From the NCBI RefSeq assembly GCF_006094695.1, contig NZ_CP035103.1, positions 3,882,652 to 3,946,651 on the forward strand: a stretch of 64,000 bases of DNA, given 5' to 3'. A program made the position numbers and the translations under genes. Under the pieces are notes generated by a model. It was not told the DNA's origin and made no database searches. It worked only from the letters and a program-made list of their open reading frames with translations. This stretch comes from Kocuria rosea. GTDB taxonomy: Bacteria; Actinomycetota; Actinomycetes; Actinomycetales; Micrococcaceae. Positions 21,823 through 30,819 of the stretch are shown here, one piece after another (position 1 is the first letter of the stretch; every line of letters starts with the position of its first letter).

Positions 21823-23136
21823 TCAGCCGATCAGCGTGGTGAGGAGCCGGTAGCAGGTGGCCAGGATCGCGGCCAGGCCGAGCAGGCCCAGGGCGGTCTG
21901 CCACCAGCGGTTGGCGTAGCGGCCCATCACGTCGCGGCGGGTGGCCATGATCAGCAGCAGGACGCCCAGCAGCGGGGCGACGATCACGGTCAGCGCCTGG
22001 GCGGTGATGATCAGCTGGATCGGGGAGCCCTGGGCGAGCAGGGTCACGGCCAGGCCGAAGGCCAGGACCACGCAGATCATGGCCTTCACCCGGTGGCGGT
22101 CCAGTTTGTTGCCCCAGCCCAGCGTGTCCGAGATGAGGGTGCCTCCGGCGGTGGCGTTGGCGATCATCGAGGAGAACGCCGCCCCCGTGAACCCGAGGCC
22201 GAAGACGGTCGTGCCGATCGGCCCGGCCAACGGCTCCAGGACCTTGGACAGGTCCCCCAGCGTGGCGGCGGTGCCGCCGGTGGCCTGCAGAGCGGTGGCC
22301 GCGACCACGATGACCAGGATGGTCATGATGCCCGGGGCGACGATGCCGGGGATGGTGTCGGCCAGGGTGGTGGCCTTGTACTGCTCGGGGCGCAGGCCCC
22401 GTTCCCTCGAGGCGTAGCCGGTGTAGAAGGCGGCGTTGATCGAGAAGTTGGTGCCGACCAGGGCCACCAGCAGCATCCCGGCTCCGGGGGGCAGGGACGG
22501 GATGAATCCGTCGGACACCTCGACCCAGTCGGGCTGGGTGAGCAGCGCCGAGGCGAGGAACCCGGCGGCCATCAGGGCGATGATCGCCAGCAGTCCCCGT
22601 TCGAAGAGCTTGTAGTAGTTCGGTGCCCAGGCCACCACGCCCACGAGCACGGTGCAGGCCAGGGTCCACAGGGTCGGGGAGCCGCCGAAGACCATGGACA
22701 TCCCCAGCCCGGAGCCCACCGCGTTGCCCACGGAGAACATCAGGGTGATCAGGAAGACCCCGATGCCGGCGGCCACCCCGGTGATCTTGCCGAGGTGCAT
22801 CTTGATCATCTGGATCAGGGAGCGGTCGGAGGCCAGGGCGATCCGCACGCTCATGTCGGTGAAGCCGAGCATCAGGAGGGTGGAGACGGCGATGACCCAG
22901 ATCAGGTCGTAGCCGTGGAGGCTGCCGGCCTGGACTGCCGAGGTCAGGTTGCCCGGGCCGAACTGCCAGGCCCCGACGATGAACCCCGGGCCCATGAGGG
23001 CCAGCGCGCCCAGCAGCCGGGATCGGCGGTTGGGTCGGGCGGGGGGTTCAGTGCCGAGTGCGGGGGTCTCGGAGTCGGTCACCTCGTGAGTGACCGAGTG
23101 CGCGGACTTCTTGGATCGAGCAGTCATGCTGGTCAT
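21823..23136 (-). CDS. NRAMP-fold transporter lacking canonical metal ligands
   Basis: The 437-residue protein has about 11 hydrophobic segments and aligns with the NRAMP pattern MGPGFIVG...PGN...AGS..GYDLIWV. The TM1 metal-binding motif DPGN is GPGN here (WQFGPGNLTS). The TM6 motif MPHN..LHS is replaced by VGTNFSINAAFYTG, so the Asp and Met ligands of Mn/Fe transporters are missing. The start at 23136 (ribosome site GGTGGAG, 7-base spacing) is preferred over 23169. It lies 29 bases downstream of a DHDPS-family lyase gene under a LacI operator. Pairing with a carbon-acid enzyme suggests import of an organic substrate rather than a metal (inference). Confidence 0.82.
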   Translation of the reverse strand: MTSMTARSKKSAHSVTHEVTDSETPALGTEPPARPNRRSRLLGALALMGPGFIVGAWQFGPGNLTSAVQAGSLHGYDLIWVIAVSTLLMLGFTDMSVRIALASDRSLIQMIKMHLGKITGVAAGIGVFLITLMFSVGNAVGSGLGMSMVFGGSPTLWTLACTVLVGVVAWAPNYYKLFERGLLAIIALMAAGFLASALLTQPDWVEVSDGFIPSLPPGAGMLLVALVGTNFSINAAFYTGYASRERGLRPEQYKATTLADTIPGIVAPGIMTILVIVVAATALQATGGTAATLGDLSKVLEPLAGPIGTTVFGLGFTGAAFSSMIANATAGGTLISDTLGWGNKLDRHRVKAMICVVLAFGLAVTLLAQGSPIQLIITAQALTVIVAPLLGVLLLIMATRRDVMGRYANRWWQTALGLLGLAAILATCYRLLTTLIG

Positions 23137-23165
23137 CGTCGTTCTCCACCGTCCTGGTTGGGAAA

Positions 23166-24134
23166 TCACACCACGCTGGTGGCCTGGAAGCCGCGGGTCG
23201 TCGTGTAGTGGGCGTTGTCACCGATGAGCCCGGCGGAGGTCAGGGCGGCGGAGATCTCCTCGCGCGCCCCCTCGGCCAGGGGCAGCAGCGGCGGACGGAC
23301 CACGGCGTTGGGCAGCACCCCGCGCTCGACCAGGCCCATCTTCAGCGCCACGGTGCCCTCCATGTGGGAGCCGCGGTGGTAGACGGCCTTGGTGACCGGC
23401 AGCAGCTTGTCGTGCAGCGCCCGGGCGGCGGCGTAGTCCTTGGCCTTGCCCGCGGCGATCAGCTCGATCAGCGGCTCGGGGGCGAGTCCGCCGTAGCCGA
23501 CCAGGGCGCCGTCGACGTCGAACATGGTGTGCAGCAGGTACTCGTCGTGGCAGGTGAGGATCTGCAGCTCCGGGTTCTCCTTGCGCAGCACGGGGATCTC
23601 GGTGTCCCAGCGGCGCATGTTGCGCACCCCGTTCTTGGTGGCGAAGACCCCGGGCTGGGCGGCGATCTCGAGCTGGGTCCTGAGGTTGTAGGTGGCCTTG
23701 GTGGCGTCGGGGTACTGGAAGAGGATCAGCGGCAGGTCGGACTCCTCGTGGATGATCCGGTAGCGCTGCTGCGGGGCGCCGTCCTGGTAGCCGAAGCGCA
23801 GCCAGCCGTGGGAGGGGTAGACCAGTCCGGCCTTGGCCCCGGCCTCGGCGGCCCGGGCGGCCTCGAGGCCGGCGACCTTGTCACCCTCGCCGGTGATGCC
23901 GGCGATGATCGGCACCTCGCCGGCGGCGTCGACCATGGTGCGGATGACGTCGACCTGCTCCTCGGCGGTGAGGTAGGTGCCCTCCCCGGCGTGGCCGAGG
24001 CAGACCAGGCCCTTCACGCCCGGCACGGAGGCGAGCCAGCGGGTCAGGTTCGCCACGGCGTCGTGGTCGACCTCCATGTCGGCGGTGAACGGGGTGACGG
24101 GGGCGGGAACGAGACCGCGGAGATCGAGAGACAT
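23166..24134 (-). CDS. Dihydrodipicolinate synthase/N-acetylneuraminate lyase family protein
   Basis: The 322-residue class I aldolase-type TIM barrel starts LRGLVPAPVTPFTADMEVDHDAVANLTRWL. The Schiff-base Lys is in FATKNGVRN and the catalytic Tyr in LILFQYPDATKA. The G.TGE substrate-carboxylate loop is changed to CLGHAGEGTY. Such enzymes cleave or condense 2-oxo acids (sugar acids, aromatic side-chain pyruvates, lysine pathway). Control by a LacI repressor and linkage to a transporter argue for a catabolic lyase or dehydratase, not lysine DapA. The ATG at 24134 has AAGGA 8 bases upstream. Confidence 0.9.
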   Translation of the reverse strand: MSLDLRGLVPAPVTPFTADMEVDHDAVANLTRWLASVPGVKGLVCLGHAGEGTYLTAEEQVDVIRTMVDAAGEVPIIAGITGEGDKVAGLEAARAAEAGAKAGLVYPSHGWLRFGYQDGAPQQRYRIIHEESDLPLILFQYPDATKATYNLRTQLEIAAQPGVFATKNGVRNMRRWDTEIPVLRKENPELQILTCHDEYLLHTMFDVDGALVGYGGLAPEPLIELIAAGKAKDYAAARALHDKLLPVTKAVYHRGSHMEGTVALKMGLVERGVLPNAVVRPPLLPLAEGAREEISAALTSAGLIGDNAHYTTTRGFQATSVV

Positions 24135-24151
24135 TTGAGGTTCCTTCTGGG

Positions 24152-24179
24152 TTGAGAACGTTTGCGGGAACGTTTTCAA
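24152..24179. promoter_or_regulatory. LacI-family operator
   Basis: Inverted half-sites TTGAGAACGTT (24152-24162) and AACGTTTTCAA (24169-24179) flank a 6-bp centre, with one mismatch. It directly abuts the predicted -10 of the lyase operon and lies in the divergent region with the lacI-type gene, so that repressor most likely binds here. Confidence 0.8.
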
Positions 24180-24207
24180 CTATGATGTGACTCATGACAC
24201 CTGTCAA
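24179..24207 (-). promoter_or_regulatory. Promoter of the lyase-transporter operon
   Basis: Minus-strand TTGACA (24202-24207) and CATAGT (24179-24184) are spaced exactly 17 bp, ending at the operator. Repressor binding would block RNA polymerase. Confidence 0.7.
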
Positions 24208-24322: not shown

Positions 24323-25357
24323 ATGACTGAGCAGGCGGGCTCACGCACCGTGACGATCCGTGACGTCGCCCGGGTCGCCGGGGTGAGCATCTCCACGGTC
24401 TCGAGGGTGCTCGACGACCGCCACCCGCCCTCGAAGTCCCCCTCGGCCGAACGCGTCCGGGCTGCCGCGGCCGAGCTGGGCTACCGCCCCGATGCCTACG
24501 CCTCCGGGTTGCGCCGCCAGCACACCGGCACCGTCGGGGTCCTGGTCCCGCGGCTGTCGGACACGGTGATGGCGGTGTTCTTCGAGGAGGTCGCCCGGGC
24601 GTGTGCGCGCCAGGCCGGTTTCGCCATGGTGGCCACCACCGAGGACCGGCCCGAGGCCGAGAGGGCCACCGTGGAGACCCTGCTGCGCCAGCGCGTGGAC
24701 GGGCTGATCCTGACCACCGCCCGCCTGGAGGACCCCGTCGCCGCCCAGCTGCGGGCGCAGGGGGTGCCGCACGTCCTGGCGCTGCGCACCGATCACATCA
24801 GTCCCTCGGCCACCGGCGACGACGAGCTCGGCGGGTATCTGGCCACCCGCCATCTGCTGGATCTGGGCCACCGGGACATCGCCCTGGTCGCCGGGCCCTC
24901 CTACGCCTCCACCGCCGTGGCCCGGCAGGCCGGCTACCGCCGCGCCATGTCCGAGGCCGGCCTGACCGAGGTCGATTACCTCGTCCACGAGTCGACCTTC
25001 GGCATGGACTCCGGGGAGACCGTCGCCCGGGCCGTCCTGGCCGGCGCGCACCGGCCCACCGCGATCTTCGCCGTCAACGACAACACCGCCATCGGCGTGC
25101 TGGCCGCCGCCCAGGCCGCCGGGCTGTCCGTGCCCGGCGATCTGTCGGTGGTCGGCTACAACGACATCCCCGTCTCGGCCCGCCTGCCCGTGGCCCTGAC
25201 CACCGTGCGGGTGCCCTTCGACCAGATCGCCGCCAACGCCGTGGAGCTGCTCACCCAGCAGCGCACCGGCGCCCTCGGCGAACCGCGCCGAGTGGTCACC
25301 CCCACTCTCATTCCGCGCCAGTCCACCGCCCGGCCCCCTGCCGCACGCACTGCCTGA
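24323..25357 (+). CDS. LacI family transcriptional regulator
   Basis: The 344-residue protein has the N-terminal LacI helix-turn-helix (VTIRDVARVAGVSISTVSRVLDDRHPPS). A periplasmic-binding-like effector domain follows (TVGVLVPRLSDTVMAVFFEEVARA, GVPHVLALRTDH, DLSVVGYNDIPVSARLPVALTTVRVP). The ATG at 24323 begins just before the HTH; an upstream in-frame start at 24194 would overlap the promoter region. It is divergent from the lyase-transporter operon, whose promoter carries a LacI operator, so it probably responds to a substrate or intermediate of that pathway. Confidence 0.93.
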   Translation: MTEQAGSRTVTIRDVARVAGVSISTVSRVLDDRHPPSKSPSAERVRAAAAELGYRPDAYASGLRRQHTGTVGVLVPRLSDTVMAVFFEEVARACARQAGFAMVATTEDRPEAERATVETLLRQRVDGLILTTARLEDPVAAQLRAQGVPHVLALRTDHISPSATGDDELGGYLATRHLLDLGHRDIALVAGPSYASTAVARQAGYRRAMSEAGLTEVDYLVHESTFGMDSGETVARAVLAGAHRPTAIFAVNDNTAIGVLAAAQAAGLSVPGDLSVVGYNDIPVSARLPVALTTVRVPFDQIAANAVELLTQQRTGALGEPRRVVTPTLIPRQSTARPPAARTA

Positions 25358-27854: not shown

Positions 27855-30455
27855 TCAGAGCCCCTCGTGCGCCATGTTCGCGAACCGGGAGTAGTGGCCC
27901 TGGAACGCCACCACGATCGTCTTGGTGGGACCGTTGCGGTGCTTGGCCACGATCACGTCGGCCTCACCGGCACGCGGCGACTCCTTGTCGTAGACGTCGT
28001 CGCGGTGCAGCAGGATCACCATGTCCGCGTCCTGCTCGATGGATCCACTTTCACGAAGATCGGACACCATCGGCTTCTTGTCCTGGCGCTGCTCGGAGCC
28101 ACGGTTCAGCTGCGACAGCGCGATGACCGGGACCTCGAGCTCCTTGGCCAGCAGCTTCAGGGCACGGGAGAACTCCGAGACCTCCTGCTGGCGGGACTCG
28201 ACCTTCTTGCCGGAGCTCATGAGCTGGAGGTAGTCGAGCACCACGAGCTTGAGATCGTGCTTCTGCTTGAGCCGGCGGCACTTCGCCCGGATCTCCATGA
28301 GGGACATGTTCGGGGAGTCGTCGATGAACAGCGGAGCGGAGTCCATCTTGCCCATCGTGGTGGCGATCTTGGCCCACTGCTCGTCCTGCAGCCGGCCCTT
28401 GCGCAGGTCCTGCATGTTCAGCGTGGCCTCGGCGGAGAGCAGGCGCATGGCGATCTCGTTGCGGCTCATCTCGAGGGAGAAGATCACCGTGGTCTGGTTG
28501 TGCTTGATCGCCGCGGACCGCGCGACGTCGAGGGCCAGCGTCGAGTTGTGCGTGGGGATGAACGTCCGGCCGGCCAGATACAGGTGCGAGGGATGGTCGA
28601 TCTCGATGCACCGCACCGGCACGGAGTCGATCGGCTCGACCGAGGTGATGAAGCGCTGAGAGCGTTTCGGCGTAGCCCGCGCGTCTCGCTCCTTGTGCAT
28701 GATTTGTTTACGACTCAGGCCGAACACCTGATCGGACGTCGAGAACGTCAGAAGATAGGCGGTGGATGAGGCCTCGCTTCGCCCATTGACTCTCTTCTCG
28801 GCCCAACCTGATCGGTACCCCAGTGAATGGACCAGTTCACGCACGTCCTGTGCCAGCCGTCGGTTTGTCACCGCGAACTGTACGCATCCTGCATTGGTCA
28901 CGGTCCCGTCGGTGTCCAACAATCCAGCAAGCAGTTCTCGGCGCTGAGTTTCACTGGCTCGCAGGTACGACATGGGGATGTGCTTGTCGCCGAGCACGCC
29001 CAGAGCACGCAGGCGGCCTTGGAAAGATGCCTTTTCCTGGTGACAGACCATGCACCGCAGACCTCCGGTACAGGTACCACCGCAGTCAATGCACGTGGCT
29101 CGCACCTTGGTCGCCAGCTCGCCCTTGAGCTTGCCGCCGCAAGTCTTGGAGCACGTTCGGACGTTCCTGTCCGTGTGAGTGAAGGGCTGATCGCAGATTT
29201 CGCACCGACCATGCAGAACCCGCTCTTCCGGAGGAAGGCCGATGGCATGAGTTATCCCTGCAACAGGATGAAGCTCGTACCCCTCCGCAGAGACACGCAT
29301 GAGGATCTCCTCATCGGCGCTGGTGATACGTGCCGCCCTCGAGTGACCGTCACCGAGCCACGCGCCGAGCGTGTACGGCCCAACAGCCAACTCCTGTGGA
29401 GCCAACTGCAATGCCGTGACGTTCCTTACGCTGTGGTTGAGCCTGGCTTCCTTGGTGGTGCATCGCAATGTCGAACGAATGTCAGCCGTCGTCCGGATCG
29501 CGGCAAAGGTCTGCTGGTTCTTCGCCCGGCCGTAATTGGCGATTGCGGCCTGGGCCGATCTCCGGGACGAGCGTGTATCGGTCAGCCACTGGTGCTGCTC
29601 GTCGGCGACGATCTCGGAGCCGTCGTCGAAGCTCACGCGGTAGCAGGGACGTTCGGTCATGACCTCGGTGGCCGCGACCACACGGGACGGCGTGCCGTCG
29701 GCGGCGATGACTTCGTCCCCCACCTGGACCTCGCCCATGGTGGTCCACCCCGTGGGTGTGGGGATCGCGGTGTCCAGGGCGAGCGCCTTGCCCATGGCCG
29801 GCCTGGCCGCGATGACGATCATCTGACCGCCCTGGAATCCCTGGGTCAGCTCGTCGAGCTCGATGAAGCCGGTGGGCACGCCGCGCATGCCCTCGCCGCG
29901 GGAGCCGGCGGCCTCGATCTCGTCGACCGTGGACTCGATGACCTCCTTGAGCACCGTGTAGTCCTCGGAGGAGCGGCGCTCGGCCACCTGGTAGATCTCG
30001 GCCTGGGCGGCGTTGACGATGTCGTCGACCTCGCCGTCGGAGCTGTAGCCGAGCTGCACGATCTTGGTGCCGGCCTCCACGAGCCGGCGCAGCACGCCGC
30101 GCTCGCGCACGATCTCGGCGTAGAAGCCCGCGTTGGCCGCGGTGGGCACGGAGGAGATGAGGGTGTGCAGGTACGCGGGACCGCCGACGCGCTCGATCTC
30201 GCCGCGCTTGGTCAGCTCGTCCGCCACGGTGATGGCGTCCGCGGGCTCGCCGCGCCCGTACAGGGAGATCACGGCCTCGTAGATGGACTCGTGGGCGGGC
30301 TTGTAGAAGTCGACGCCGCGCAGGACCTCCACCACGTCCGCGATCGCGTCCTTGGACAGCATCATCCCGCCGAGCACGGACTGCTCCGCGACGTTGTCCT
30401 GCGGCGGGGTCCGGCCGTACTCCCGGTCGCTCCCGGACGAGCGCTCCGACACCAT
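27855..30455 (-). CDS. dnaB: Replicative DNA helicase DnaB, interrupted by an intein
   Basis: The 866-residue precursor contains a 452-residue DnaB split by a 414-residue intein. The N-extein (223 residues) has TPPQDNVAEQSVLGGMML, VGGPAYLHTLISSVPTAANAGFYAEIV and the RecA-core start VPTGFIELDELTQGFQGGQMIVIAARPAMGK. The C-extein resumes STLALDVARSAAIKHNQTTVIFSLEMSR, with LVVLDYLQLMSS (Walker B) and AKHRNGPT near the end. The intein therefore splits Walker A between Lys and Ser, and splicing is required for an active helicase. ATG 30455 is used; an in-frame GTG at 30461 sits at better distance from AGAGGTGG. DnaB is essential, so the intein must splice. Confidence 0.96.
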   Translation of the reverse strand: MVSERSSGSDREYGRTPPQDNVAEQSVLGGMMLSKDAIADVVEVLRGVDFYKPAHESIYEAVISLYGRGEPADAITVADELTKRGEIERVGGPAYLHTLISSVPTAANAGFYAEIVRERGVLRRLVEAGTKIVQLGYSSDGEVDDIVNAAQAEIYQVAERRSSEDYTVLKEVIESTVDEIEAAGSRGEGMRGVPTGFIELDELTQGFQGGQMIVIAARPAMGKALALDTAIPTPTGWTTMGEVQVGDEVIAADGTPSRVVAATEVMTERPCYRVSFDDGSEIVADEQHQWLTDTRSSRRSAQAAIANYGRAKNQQTFAAIRTTADIRSTLRCTTKEARLNHSVRNVTALQLAPQELAVGPYTLGAWLGDGHSRAARITSADEEILMRVSAEGYELHPVAGITHAIGLPPEERVLHGRCEICDQPFTHTDRNVRTCSKTCGGKLKGELATKVRATCIDCGGTCTGGLRCMVCHQEKASFQGRLRALGVLGDKHIPMSYLRASETQRRELLAGLLDTDGTVTNAGCVQFAVTNRRLAQDVRELVHSLGYRSGWAEKRVNGRSEASSTAYLLTFSTSDQVFGLSRKQIMHKERDARATPKRSQRFITSVEPIDSVPVRCIEIDHPSHLYLAGRTFIPTHNSTLALDVARSAAIKHNQTTVIFSLEMSRNEIAMRLLSAEATLNMQDLRKGRLQDEQWAKIATTMGKMDSAPLFIDDSPNMSLMEIRAKCRRLKQKHDLKLVVLDYLQLMSSGKKVESRQQEVSEFSRALKLLAKELEVPVIALSQLNRGSEQRQDKKPMVSDLRESGSIEQDADMVILLHRDDVYDKESPRAGEADVIVAKHRNGPTKTIVVAFQGHYSRFANMAHEGL
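28545..29786 (-). mobile_element. DnaB intein with LAGLIDADG homing endonuclease (class 3)
   Basis: The intein is 414 residues, starting ALALDTAIPTPTGW and ending FIPTHN before extein Ser. Residue 1 is Ala, not Cys or Ser. Block B has W67 (ADEQHQW), block F has C393 (VRCIEIDHPSHLYLAG) and block G has T412 (PTHN): the W-C-T set that defines class 3 inteins, which use the block F Cys as first nucleophile. LAGLIDADG-type motifs are LGAWLGDGH (140-148) and LLAGLLDTDGT (285-295). Between them is a Cys-rich insert with C195/C198/C212/C216 and C232/C235/C239/C245/C248. Base composition is visibly less GC-rich than the exteins, consistent with horizontal spread. Confidence 0.93.
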
Positions 30456-30819
30456 CGACACCTGGTCCACCTCTCCCCGCGCACCCGCGGACAGCGGAGC
30501 GCGCACACGACGACGCCGCCCCGATCTTCCGGGCAGCCCCTCCATTCTCGCACCGACCGCGGACACCGCTTGCCGCCCGGGCCCGTCCGTGGACACCATG
30601 GATCATGACGCTCACCACAGACCTCAGCGGCCCCTGTTCGTGGGACATCAGGACCACCCGGGCGGAGCTGGCCGCGGGCCGGATCAGCCACGTGGAGCAC
30701 CTCGACGCCCTGCTGGAGCGCCTGCCCACGGCGCAGCGGCTGGGCGCGGTGATCAGCGCGGACCCGGAGCTGGCCCGGGCCTTCGCCCACGCGCTGGACC
30801 GCCGGGAGACGCGGGGCCC

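Follow-up and report, generated by a model that had tools for sequence, protein, structure and literature searches.

A LacI-linked unit pairs a DHDPS-family lyase with an NRAMP-family transporter that has lost the metal-binding residues

Introduction

What does a protein of the NRAMP family carry once its metal-binding residues have been replaced and its gene accompanies that of a lyase? This question is raised by a locus of Kocuria rosea near the end of a single-contig genome of 3.95 Mb (NZ_CP035103.1; its last 64,000 nucleotides, analysed here, are hereafter the window), where a gene for an NRAMP-family (PF01566) transporter follows that of a lyase of the dihydrodipicolinate synthase (DHDPS) family, with a divergent lacI-type gene. 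An initial annotation of this DNA proposed that the transporter imports an organic or sugar acid for the lyase, which would be a new substrate class for the fold. Here, we present comparative evidence that strongly supports a functional tie between the NRAMP relative and the lyase. Uptake of the lyase's substrate, an organic acid, is the best explanation of the unit, with a probability that we put at roughly 80%.

Several published findings frame the question. In SLC11 proteins, an Asp in the first transmembrane helix (TM1) is called universally conserved and required for transport, and motifs in TM1 and TM6 distinguish transporters of transition metals (DxxN-A/CxxM), Al (DxxN-AxxT), and Mg (DxxG-TxxA/T) (PMC8806188). 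A published phylogeny includes a Slc11 outgroup within PF01566 that is without the Mn and proton features (PMC9606685). In Corynebacterium glutamicum, growth on 5-oxoproline requires PxpT, a member of the NRAMP family that shares 50% identity with YcsG; the authors of that work propose an organic substrate from growth genetics and leave metal transport possible (PMC13274462). YcsG has been described as a Mn importer and given the new name MntG (PMC10448178), and Acinetobacter baumannii MumT, encoded in an operon with urea carboxylase, has likewise been reported to import Mn (PMC5050338). We found no published account of a lacI-lyase-NRAMP module, including under the combination of NRAMP, dihydrodipicolinate synthase, and LacI, and the accessible part of an Acinetobacter gene-cluster paper does not contain the word dihydrodipicolinate (PMC9162365).

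Results

The arrangement described in the initial annotation, with a lyase gene 29 bp ahead of the NRAMP gene, a divergent lacI, and an inverted repeat at the promoter, is present in the DNA. The first gene (23166..24134, reverse strand) encodes a lyase or dehydratase of the DHDPS/NAL superfamily, assigned by Pfam (PF00701, 108.9 bits versus a cut-off of 22.1), which keeps the Schiff-base Lys. It is followed by the NRAMP-family gene (21823..23136, reverse strand), running from an ATG at 23136 to a stop at 21823, with an alternative GTG start at 23169. Its product, a 437-residue transporter of GxxN/TxxS type, is assigned by Pfam, by its motifs, and by a clade with a support of 99; the best named match to the gene is from an uncultured Kocuria (96%). 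The divergent gene (24323..25357, forward strand) encodes a LacI-family regulator, whose start is inferred (the open reading frame, or ORF, is open from 24194) and which has both a helix-turn-helix domain (PF00356, 50.7 bits) and a periplasmic-binding domain (PF13377, 135.6 bits). The 188-bp gap between lacI and the lyase gene contains a predicted composite LacI-type operator (24152..24179, no strand assigned), the imperfect inverted repeat TTGAGAACGTTTGCGGGAACGTTTTCAA, in which two AACGTT cores are 12 bp apart and which has a single match genome-wide at ≤3 mismatches.

The metal site of the NRAMP-family protein is lost, as seen by alignment with the canonical MntH encoded elsewhere in the same genome (L001; PF01566, 351 bits; DPGN and MPH). 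The metal-binding DPGN of TM1 is replaced by GPGN (22948..22959, reverse strand; within AWQFGPGNL), and the metal-binding A/CxxM of TM6 by TNFS (22441..22452, reverse strand), VGTNFSINA standing opposite GATVMPHA (VGTNFSIN is encoded at 22435-22458, reverse strand). The acidic residues of TM3 are also gone (ATDLAE of MntH aligns with MFSVGN, or F[SA]VGN across the clade), as is the TM6b His (MPH aligns with SIN, SVN, or SLN in the clade), and the TM10 Gln is retained. The absence of Asp and Met pointed out in the initial annotation holds for all 32 clade sequences compared (the query, 20 genome loci, one protein from Neorhizobium, and 10 taken from 120 listed database proteins, with L008, L009, and L024 omitted): TM1 is GxxN in 30 and GxxA in two, both from Rhodococcus, and TM6 is TNFS in every one. 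GPGN and TNFS are likewise invariant in a separate 37-sequence alignment (A1, whose residue numbers begin one residue past the ATG). The clade is without DxxN, A/CxxM, the TM3 acidic residues, and the TM6b His, and it matches none of the transition-metal, Al, and Mg motif types (PMC8806188). The window protein nevertheless belongs to PF01566 (239 bits versus a cut-off of 29.8) and exceeds the cut-off of NCBIfam NF037982, "Nramp family divalent metal transporter" (93.5 versus 50), a name that is annotation only, while missing that of the MntH model NF001923 (126.2 versus 430). Databases annotate clade proteins as divalent metal transporters.

A survey of the neighborhoods of GPGN-type NRAMP genes places the DHDPS-family gene next to the NRAMP gene, on the same strand, in 20 of 23 related loci, and again in all four extra loci that we opened (L088-L091) and on a Neorhizobium plasmid. 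In the remaining three loci the NRAMP gene is cut or shortened: L008 and L009 (Kocuria dechangensis, G398) start inside it at a contig end, and L024 (G413) has a shortened NRAMP gene, a partial lacI, and no lyase gene. The NRAMP gene lies downstream of the lyase gene in 17 of the 20 linked loci and comes first in three (L006, L007, L026). A lacI orthologue more than 50% identical is found near the NRAMP gene in 20 of the 23 loci, on the opposite strand in 19 and on the same strand in L018, and there is none nearby in L008, L009, and L013. Once these three genes and frames antisense to lacI are set aside, every ORF cluster is confined to three loci or fewer. Fur/MntR-type regulators, which the initial annotation had named as neighbors that would speak against its proposal, are not among the 25 commonest of the 138 Pfam families present in 113 of 134 selected neighboring ORFs, a single such gene being possible.

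Across 396 Actinomycetota genomes sampled evenly (the best 3-5 candidates per genome being scored), either gene was found at E 1e-60 only in the K. rosea genome itself. This documents rarity and provides no co-occurrence test, and one family was therefore sampled instead: 200 genomes of the Pseudonocardiaceae, the family of G402 (Prauserella muralis, locus L013). The NRAMP gene is present in 11 of them, the lyase gene in 13, and both in nine, where they are always side by side within 300 bp (one-sided Fisher P = 3.2e-11, with genomes treated as independent, as in the two values that follow). The P value is 6e-6 after dropping six genomes known beforehand, and 5e-7 when four lyase-only genomes are counted once. 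The two NRAMP-only genomes are G413, with its shortened gene, and G478, which has a 40% relative. The Prauserella genome G402 holds 10 PF01566 matches, seven of them above the cut-off.

We then asked how widely the palindrome is shared, scanning for GGGAACGTTCCC the 188 bp before the lyase gene (or before the NRAMP gene where that comes first) in 39 regions; L005 (a near-copy of the window), L006 before the lyase gene, L008, L009, L013, L024, L045, and L088-L091 are omitted. Exact copies were found in 17 of 21 actinobacterial NRAMP-type regions; the other four (the window, L019, L022, L023) have two to three mismatches. They also occur in all four Pseudonocardiaceae regions with a transporter of the major facilitator superfamily (MFS) and in six of eight proteobacterial LacI-linked regions (not in Klebsiella and Rahnella), and in none of five LysR-linked regions or the one Priestia region. 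Each exact match was equalled by none of 200 shuffles. The window site, with two mismatches, was equalled by nine of 200, and the evidence there is therefore its position, its second half-site, and the comparison between regions. All three NRAMP-first loci have their own operator copy before the NRAMP gene. CebR belongs to the LacI family. The 12-mer was found in one paper, inside the CebR2 consensus TGGGAACGTTCCCA (PMC9953190). Judged by sequence, the conserved palindrome is a LacI-type operator.

The partner of the lyase has been exchanged repeatedly. In four lyase-only genomes (G440, G476, G555, G571), the divergent lacI is followed by the lyase gene and then by an MFS gene in the slot of the NRAMP gene. 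This MFS protein is an orthologue of the one encoded after the lyase gene on plasmids of Azoarcus, Acinetobacter, Agrobacterium, Klebsiella, Rhizobium, and Azospirillum (61-71% identity); its counterparts in Cupriavidus, Burkholderia, and Priestia are 45-46% identical to it. We opened 13 proteobacterial regions out of 54 plasmid records whose lyase is 60-80% identical, and the next annotated gene after the lyase gene encodes an MFS transporter in 11. On a tree of the lyase (41 rows, 24 labeled NRAMP and 15 MFS; bootstrap and Shimodaira-Hasegawa-like approximate likelihood ratio test, SH-aLRT), well-supported branches force at least four changes between the NRAMP and MFS labels, the 5-95% range over 200 bootstrap trees being 4-4. 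These changes could reflect a replaced transporter or a lacI-lyase pair that moved; in either case the partner was exchanged. For example, Neorhizobium petrolearium has a rhizobial lacI and lyase (76-79% and 87-91% identical to Rhizobium/Agrobacterium, versus 53-59% and 65-67% to the Actinobacteria compared), yet its transporter is of the NRAMP family.

The slot MFS transporters also bear on the direction of transport. Their best model is the aromatic-acid/H+ symport family, in all four proteobacterial proteins scanned (213-241 bits, below the cut-off of 418.55), and a porin gene follows the MFS gene in five of the 11 MFS regions, as in uptake systems. Both points argue against the possibility that the NRAMP protein is an exporter, moving out a product of the lyase reaction or an intermediate in it. 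Direction is unreadable from sequence, and the usual position of the NRAMP gene downstream of the lyase gene would suit export, which we consider highly improbable. Even less credit can be given to import of a metal-carboxylate complex, with metal and acid entering together: it would reconcile the NRAMP ancestry with the link to the lyase, but the protein has lost its metal ligands, and its exchange with a conventional MFS transporter suggests a free anion.

To place the clade within its family, we built a tree of 65 of 95 PF01566 sequences, after thinning the clade and removing fragments and near-copies, by a quick method with SH-aLRT support only and midpoint rooting, several long branches being flagged. 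The window clade forms its own branch (99). Nearest to it are the 40% relative in G478 (94) and then a haloarchaeal GPGS/TTFS group (97). All sampled acidic-TM1 types form one group (97) that excludes the clade, and beside this group lies a haloarchaeal GPGT group (95). The clade shares with MntH/SLC11 the Pfam family, the LeuT-type fold expected from it, the TM1 Asn (30 of 32), and the TM10 Gln, and differs by the ligands listed above and by its place in a lacI-lyase unit. NRMT Mg(II) transporters, of the same Pfam family, have in common with it a Thr at the first position of the TM6 motif, but keep the TM1 Asp (DxxG-TxxA/T, versus GxxN-TxxS in the clade; PMC8806188). The haloarchaeal GPGS-type proteins resemble the clade in their TM6 TTFS and catabolic neighbors, but in the four regions opened (L047, L050, L051, L052) no DHDPS-family gene is annotated next to theirs. 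Those neighbors are Gfo/Idh/MocA genes and, variously, heparinase-like, FAH-family, or amidohydrolase genes, while the GPGT-type genes (L049, L053) abut or overlap hydantoinase/oxoprolinase A and B genes. We know of no characterization of haloarchaeal GPGS-type PF01566 proteins.

PxpT-type proteins form a separate supported branch and, like other Asp-less types, are placed across the midpoint root from the clade. The type is defined here by gene neighbors and not by direct comparison with a PxpT or YcsG sequence: L004-like proteins are so called from the setting of L004, which adjoins a gene for D-glutamate cyclase and has CT_A_B and biotin-carboxylase genes close by. This locus belongs to the K. 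rosea genome itself (3586001; L004/L040). L004 matches 168 PLSDB plasmid records, 93 of them Klebsiella, all at <60% identity. The clade is like PxpT/YcsG (MntG) in being an NRAMP-family protein in a catabolic operon under a ligand-sensing repressor, and unlike the PxpT-type proteins in branch, in motifs (GPGF in TM1 and GGTVGGY in TM6 in the latter), and in partner, which is 5-oxoprolinase for PxpT. Linkage of the clade to 5-oxoprolinase genes was not seen, only lacI and the lyase gene recurring across loci. A probable MumT (L157, A. baumannii NZ_CP064203.1; the record's only over-threshold PF01566 protein) has GPGF and GGTVGGY like the PxpT type. Its gene lies beside LamB/YcsF (PxpA-type), D-glutamate-cyclase, and LysR genes, and the "urea" mum operon therefore resembles a 5-oxoproline operon.

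Could the clade still import a divalent metal (Mn or Mg), supplied for growth on the acid or for the enzyme? The matches to PF01566 and NF037982 would agree with this, as would the reports on YcsG and MumT (PMC10448178, PMC5050338), given that PxpT/YcsG-type proteins and the probable MumT also lack the TM1 Asp. Against it stand the Gly found in 32 of 32 sequences in place of an Asp held to be universal in SLC11 (PMC8806188), the loss of the TM6 Met and TM3 acids, the lack of a metal-regulator family among the commonest neighbor families, and at least four partner changes, which a need for metal would not lead one to expect. We therefore regard metal import as unlikely. The enzyme side agrees with this, since DHDPS-fold Schiff-base enzymes need no metal.

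As for the lyase, it has in common with DapA, NanA, KdgD, and other DHDPS-superfamily enzymes the Pfam family and the Schiff-base Lys, but falls below every curated NCBIfam cut-off (score/cut-off: DapA, TIGR00674, 108.6/206.15; KdgD 52.6/373.95; NanA 40.2/382; HpaI-NOT-DapA 53.6/396.7; archaeal KDG aldolase 39.3/390). By alignment, the positions of DapA Thr44, Thr45, and Tyr133, which we take to be its active-site residues, are His48, Ala49, and Phe139 in the lyase. On the NCBIfam score and these active-site changes, we reject the reading of the lyase as DapA of lysine biosynthesis. An alignment of 30 actinobacterial and proteobacterial orthologues has 128 invariant positions out of 322, including the Schiff-base K167 as well as His109, Arg113, Lys146, Arg171, His196, Asp197, Glu198, and His257; Ala49 is outside this set but invariant in a separate 24-sequence alignment. 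As read from the sequences, the invariant residues suggest a polar, charged substrate. Sequence and profile searches of the PDB rank DapA-type enzymes first and gave no clue to the substrate, and we know of none for this enzyme. The isolates that bear the lyase are from soil, plant-associated, and clinical sources.

Gene neighbors give a further hint. FAH-family and hydantoinase genes are among those of the Microvirga, Klebsiella, and Rahnella orthologues. In Geodermatophilus, a paralogue at 54% identity (L092) lies near FAD_binding_2, MaoC, Iso_dh (isocitrate/isopropylmalate-dehydrogenase-family), SDR, and Aldedh genes, and its locus also has a LacI-like gene, 31% identical to that of the window. 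Taken together, these neighbors suggest carboxylic-acid catabolism, with no compound named.

Other genes of the window were considered as members of the unit. The TauE/SafE gene adjoins it in the Kocuria loci L005 and L009 and in no others, and none of the 23 loci has the alcohol dehydrogenase or the AraC-type gene; from this distribution, they are not part of the unit. Elsewhere in the window (27855-30599, reverse strand), a 914-residue replicative-helicase-like ORF has a length and an inserted stretch that suggest an intein, its translation having been read by eye.

Discussion

A functional tie between the NRAMP relative and the lyase is strongly supported by the linkage of the two genes, by the shared operator, and by at least four changes of the lyase's partner between NRAMP and MFS. 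This tie fits import of the lyase's organic substrate, and to this extent the proposal of the initial annotation is well supported. Since the TM1 Asp is also lost in PxpT-type proteins and in the probable MumT, its loss alone does not settle the substrate; the MFS exchange is the stronger argument for an organic one. The further claim of a new substrate class for the fold is not supported in that form. The LeuT fold carries amino acids. Within the NRAMP family, PxpT/YcsG has already been proposed for 5-oxoproline (PMC13274462). What is new here is a further NRAMP-family lineage tied to the use of organic substrates, with a new enzyme partner.

We infer the direction of transport, the substrate class, the coupling ion, repression and induction by LacI, and the chemistry of the lyase. 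The unit would be a compact module, controlled by LacI, that takes up and breaks down one organic acid, its NRAMP-fold protein acting as a secondary importer that gave up metal, with the cation-holding TM1 Asp replaced by Gly and the TM6 Met by Ser. Amino-acid members of the APC superfamily hold carboxylates by backbone-amide loops, and by analogy the G-P-G loop of TM1 might hold the carboxylate. The imported acid (probably a mono- or dicarboxylate of 2-oxo or 2-keto-3-deoxy type) or a derivative of it would free LacI from the operator, and the lyase would split or dehydrate the acid through its Schiff-base Lys. The unit has no other conserved enzyme gene, and the products therefore probably feed straight into central metabolism.

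Several observations weigh against organic-acid import. The MFS transporters of the four lyase-only genomes are 95-97% identical and thus count as one lineage. The lyase orthologue of Microvirga lies in a hydantoinase/FAH/TTT cluster with neither an MFS nor an NRAMP gene beside it, and that of N. galegae has no annotated transporter or gene listed in the slot. G398 and G413 have no lyase match at E 1e-40, and in G478 the 40% relative lies beside amidohydrolase and IclR-type genes, with no lyase. The lacI gene is absent nearby in L013 and not divergent in L018. In the Rhodococcus genome G411, the clade protein is the sole PF01566 match. Two NRAMP proteins whose genes are linked to catabolic genes, MumT (PMC5050338) and YcsG (PMC10448178), were each interpreted as Mn importers, and the probable MumT, too, is without the TM1 Asp. 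We know of no transport or enzyme assay for any member.

We raise only tentatively a broader view, in which TM1-Asp-less PF01566 branches are in general organic-anion importers, their GPG loop holding a carboxylate, and Me2+ transport is one specialized branch. PxpT and the clade would then be two organic-acid lineages, the latter for a new substrate of a new DHDPS-family enzyme, and it may be necessary to re-examine MumT and YcsG, now annotated for Mn. The findings bear on the dispute over YcsG, PxpT, and MumT. Repeated exchange with MFS transporters at a fixed enzyme is unusually direct comparative evidence for an organic solute in the NRAMP family, and the unit is a small, testable system for studying how the fold switches between cations and organic anions.

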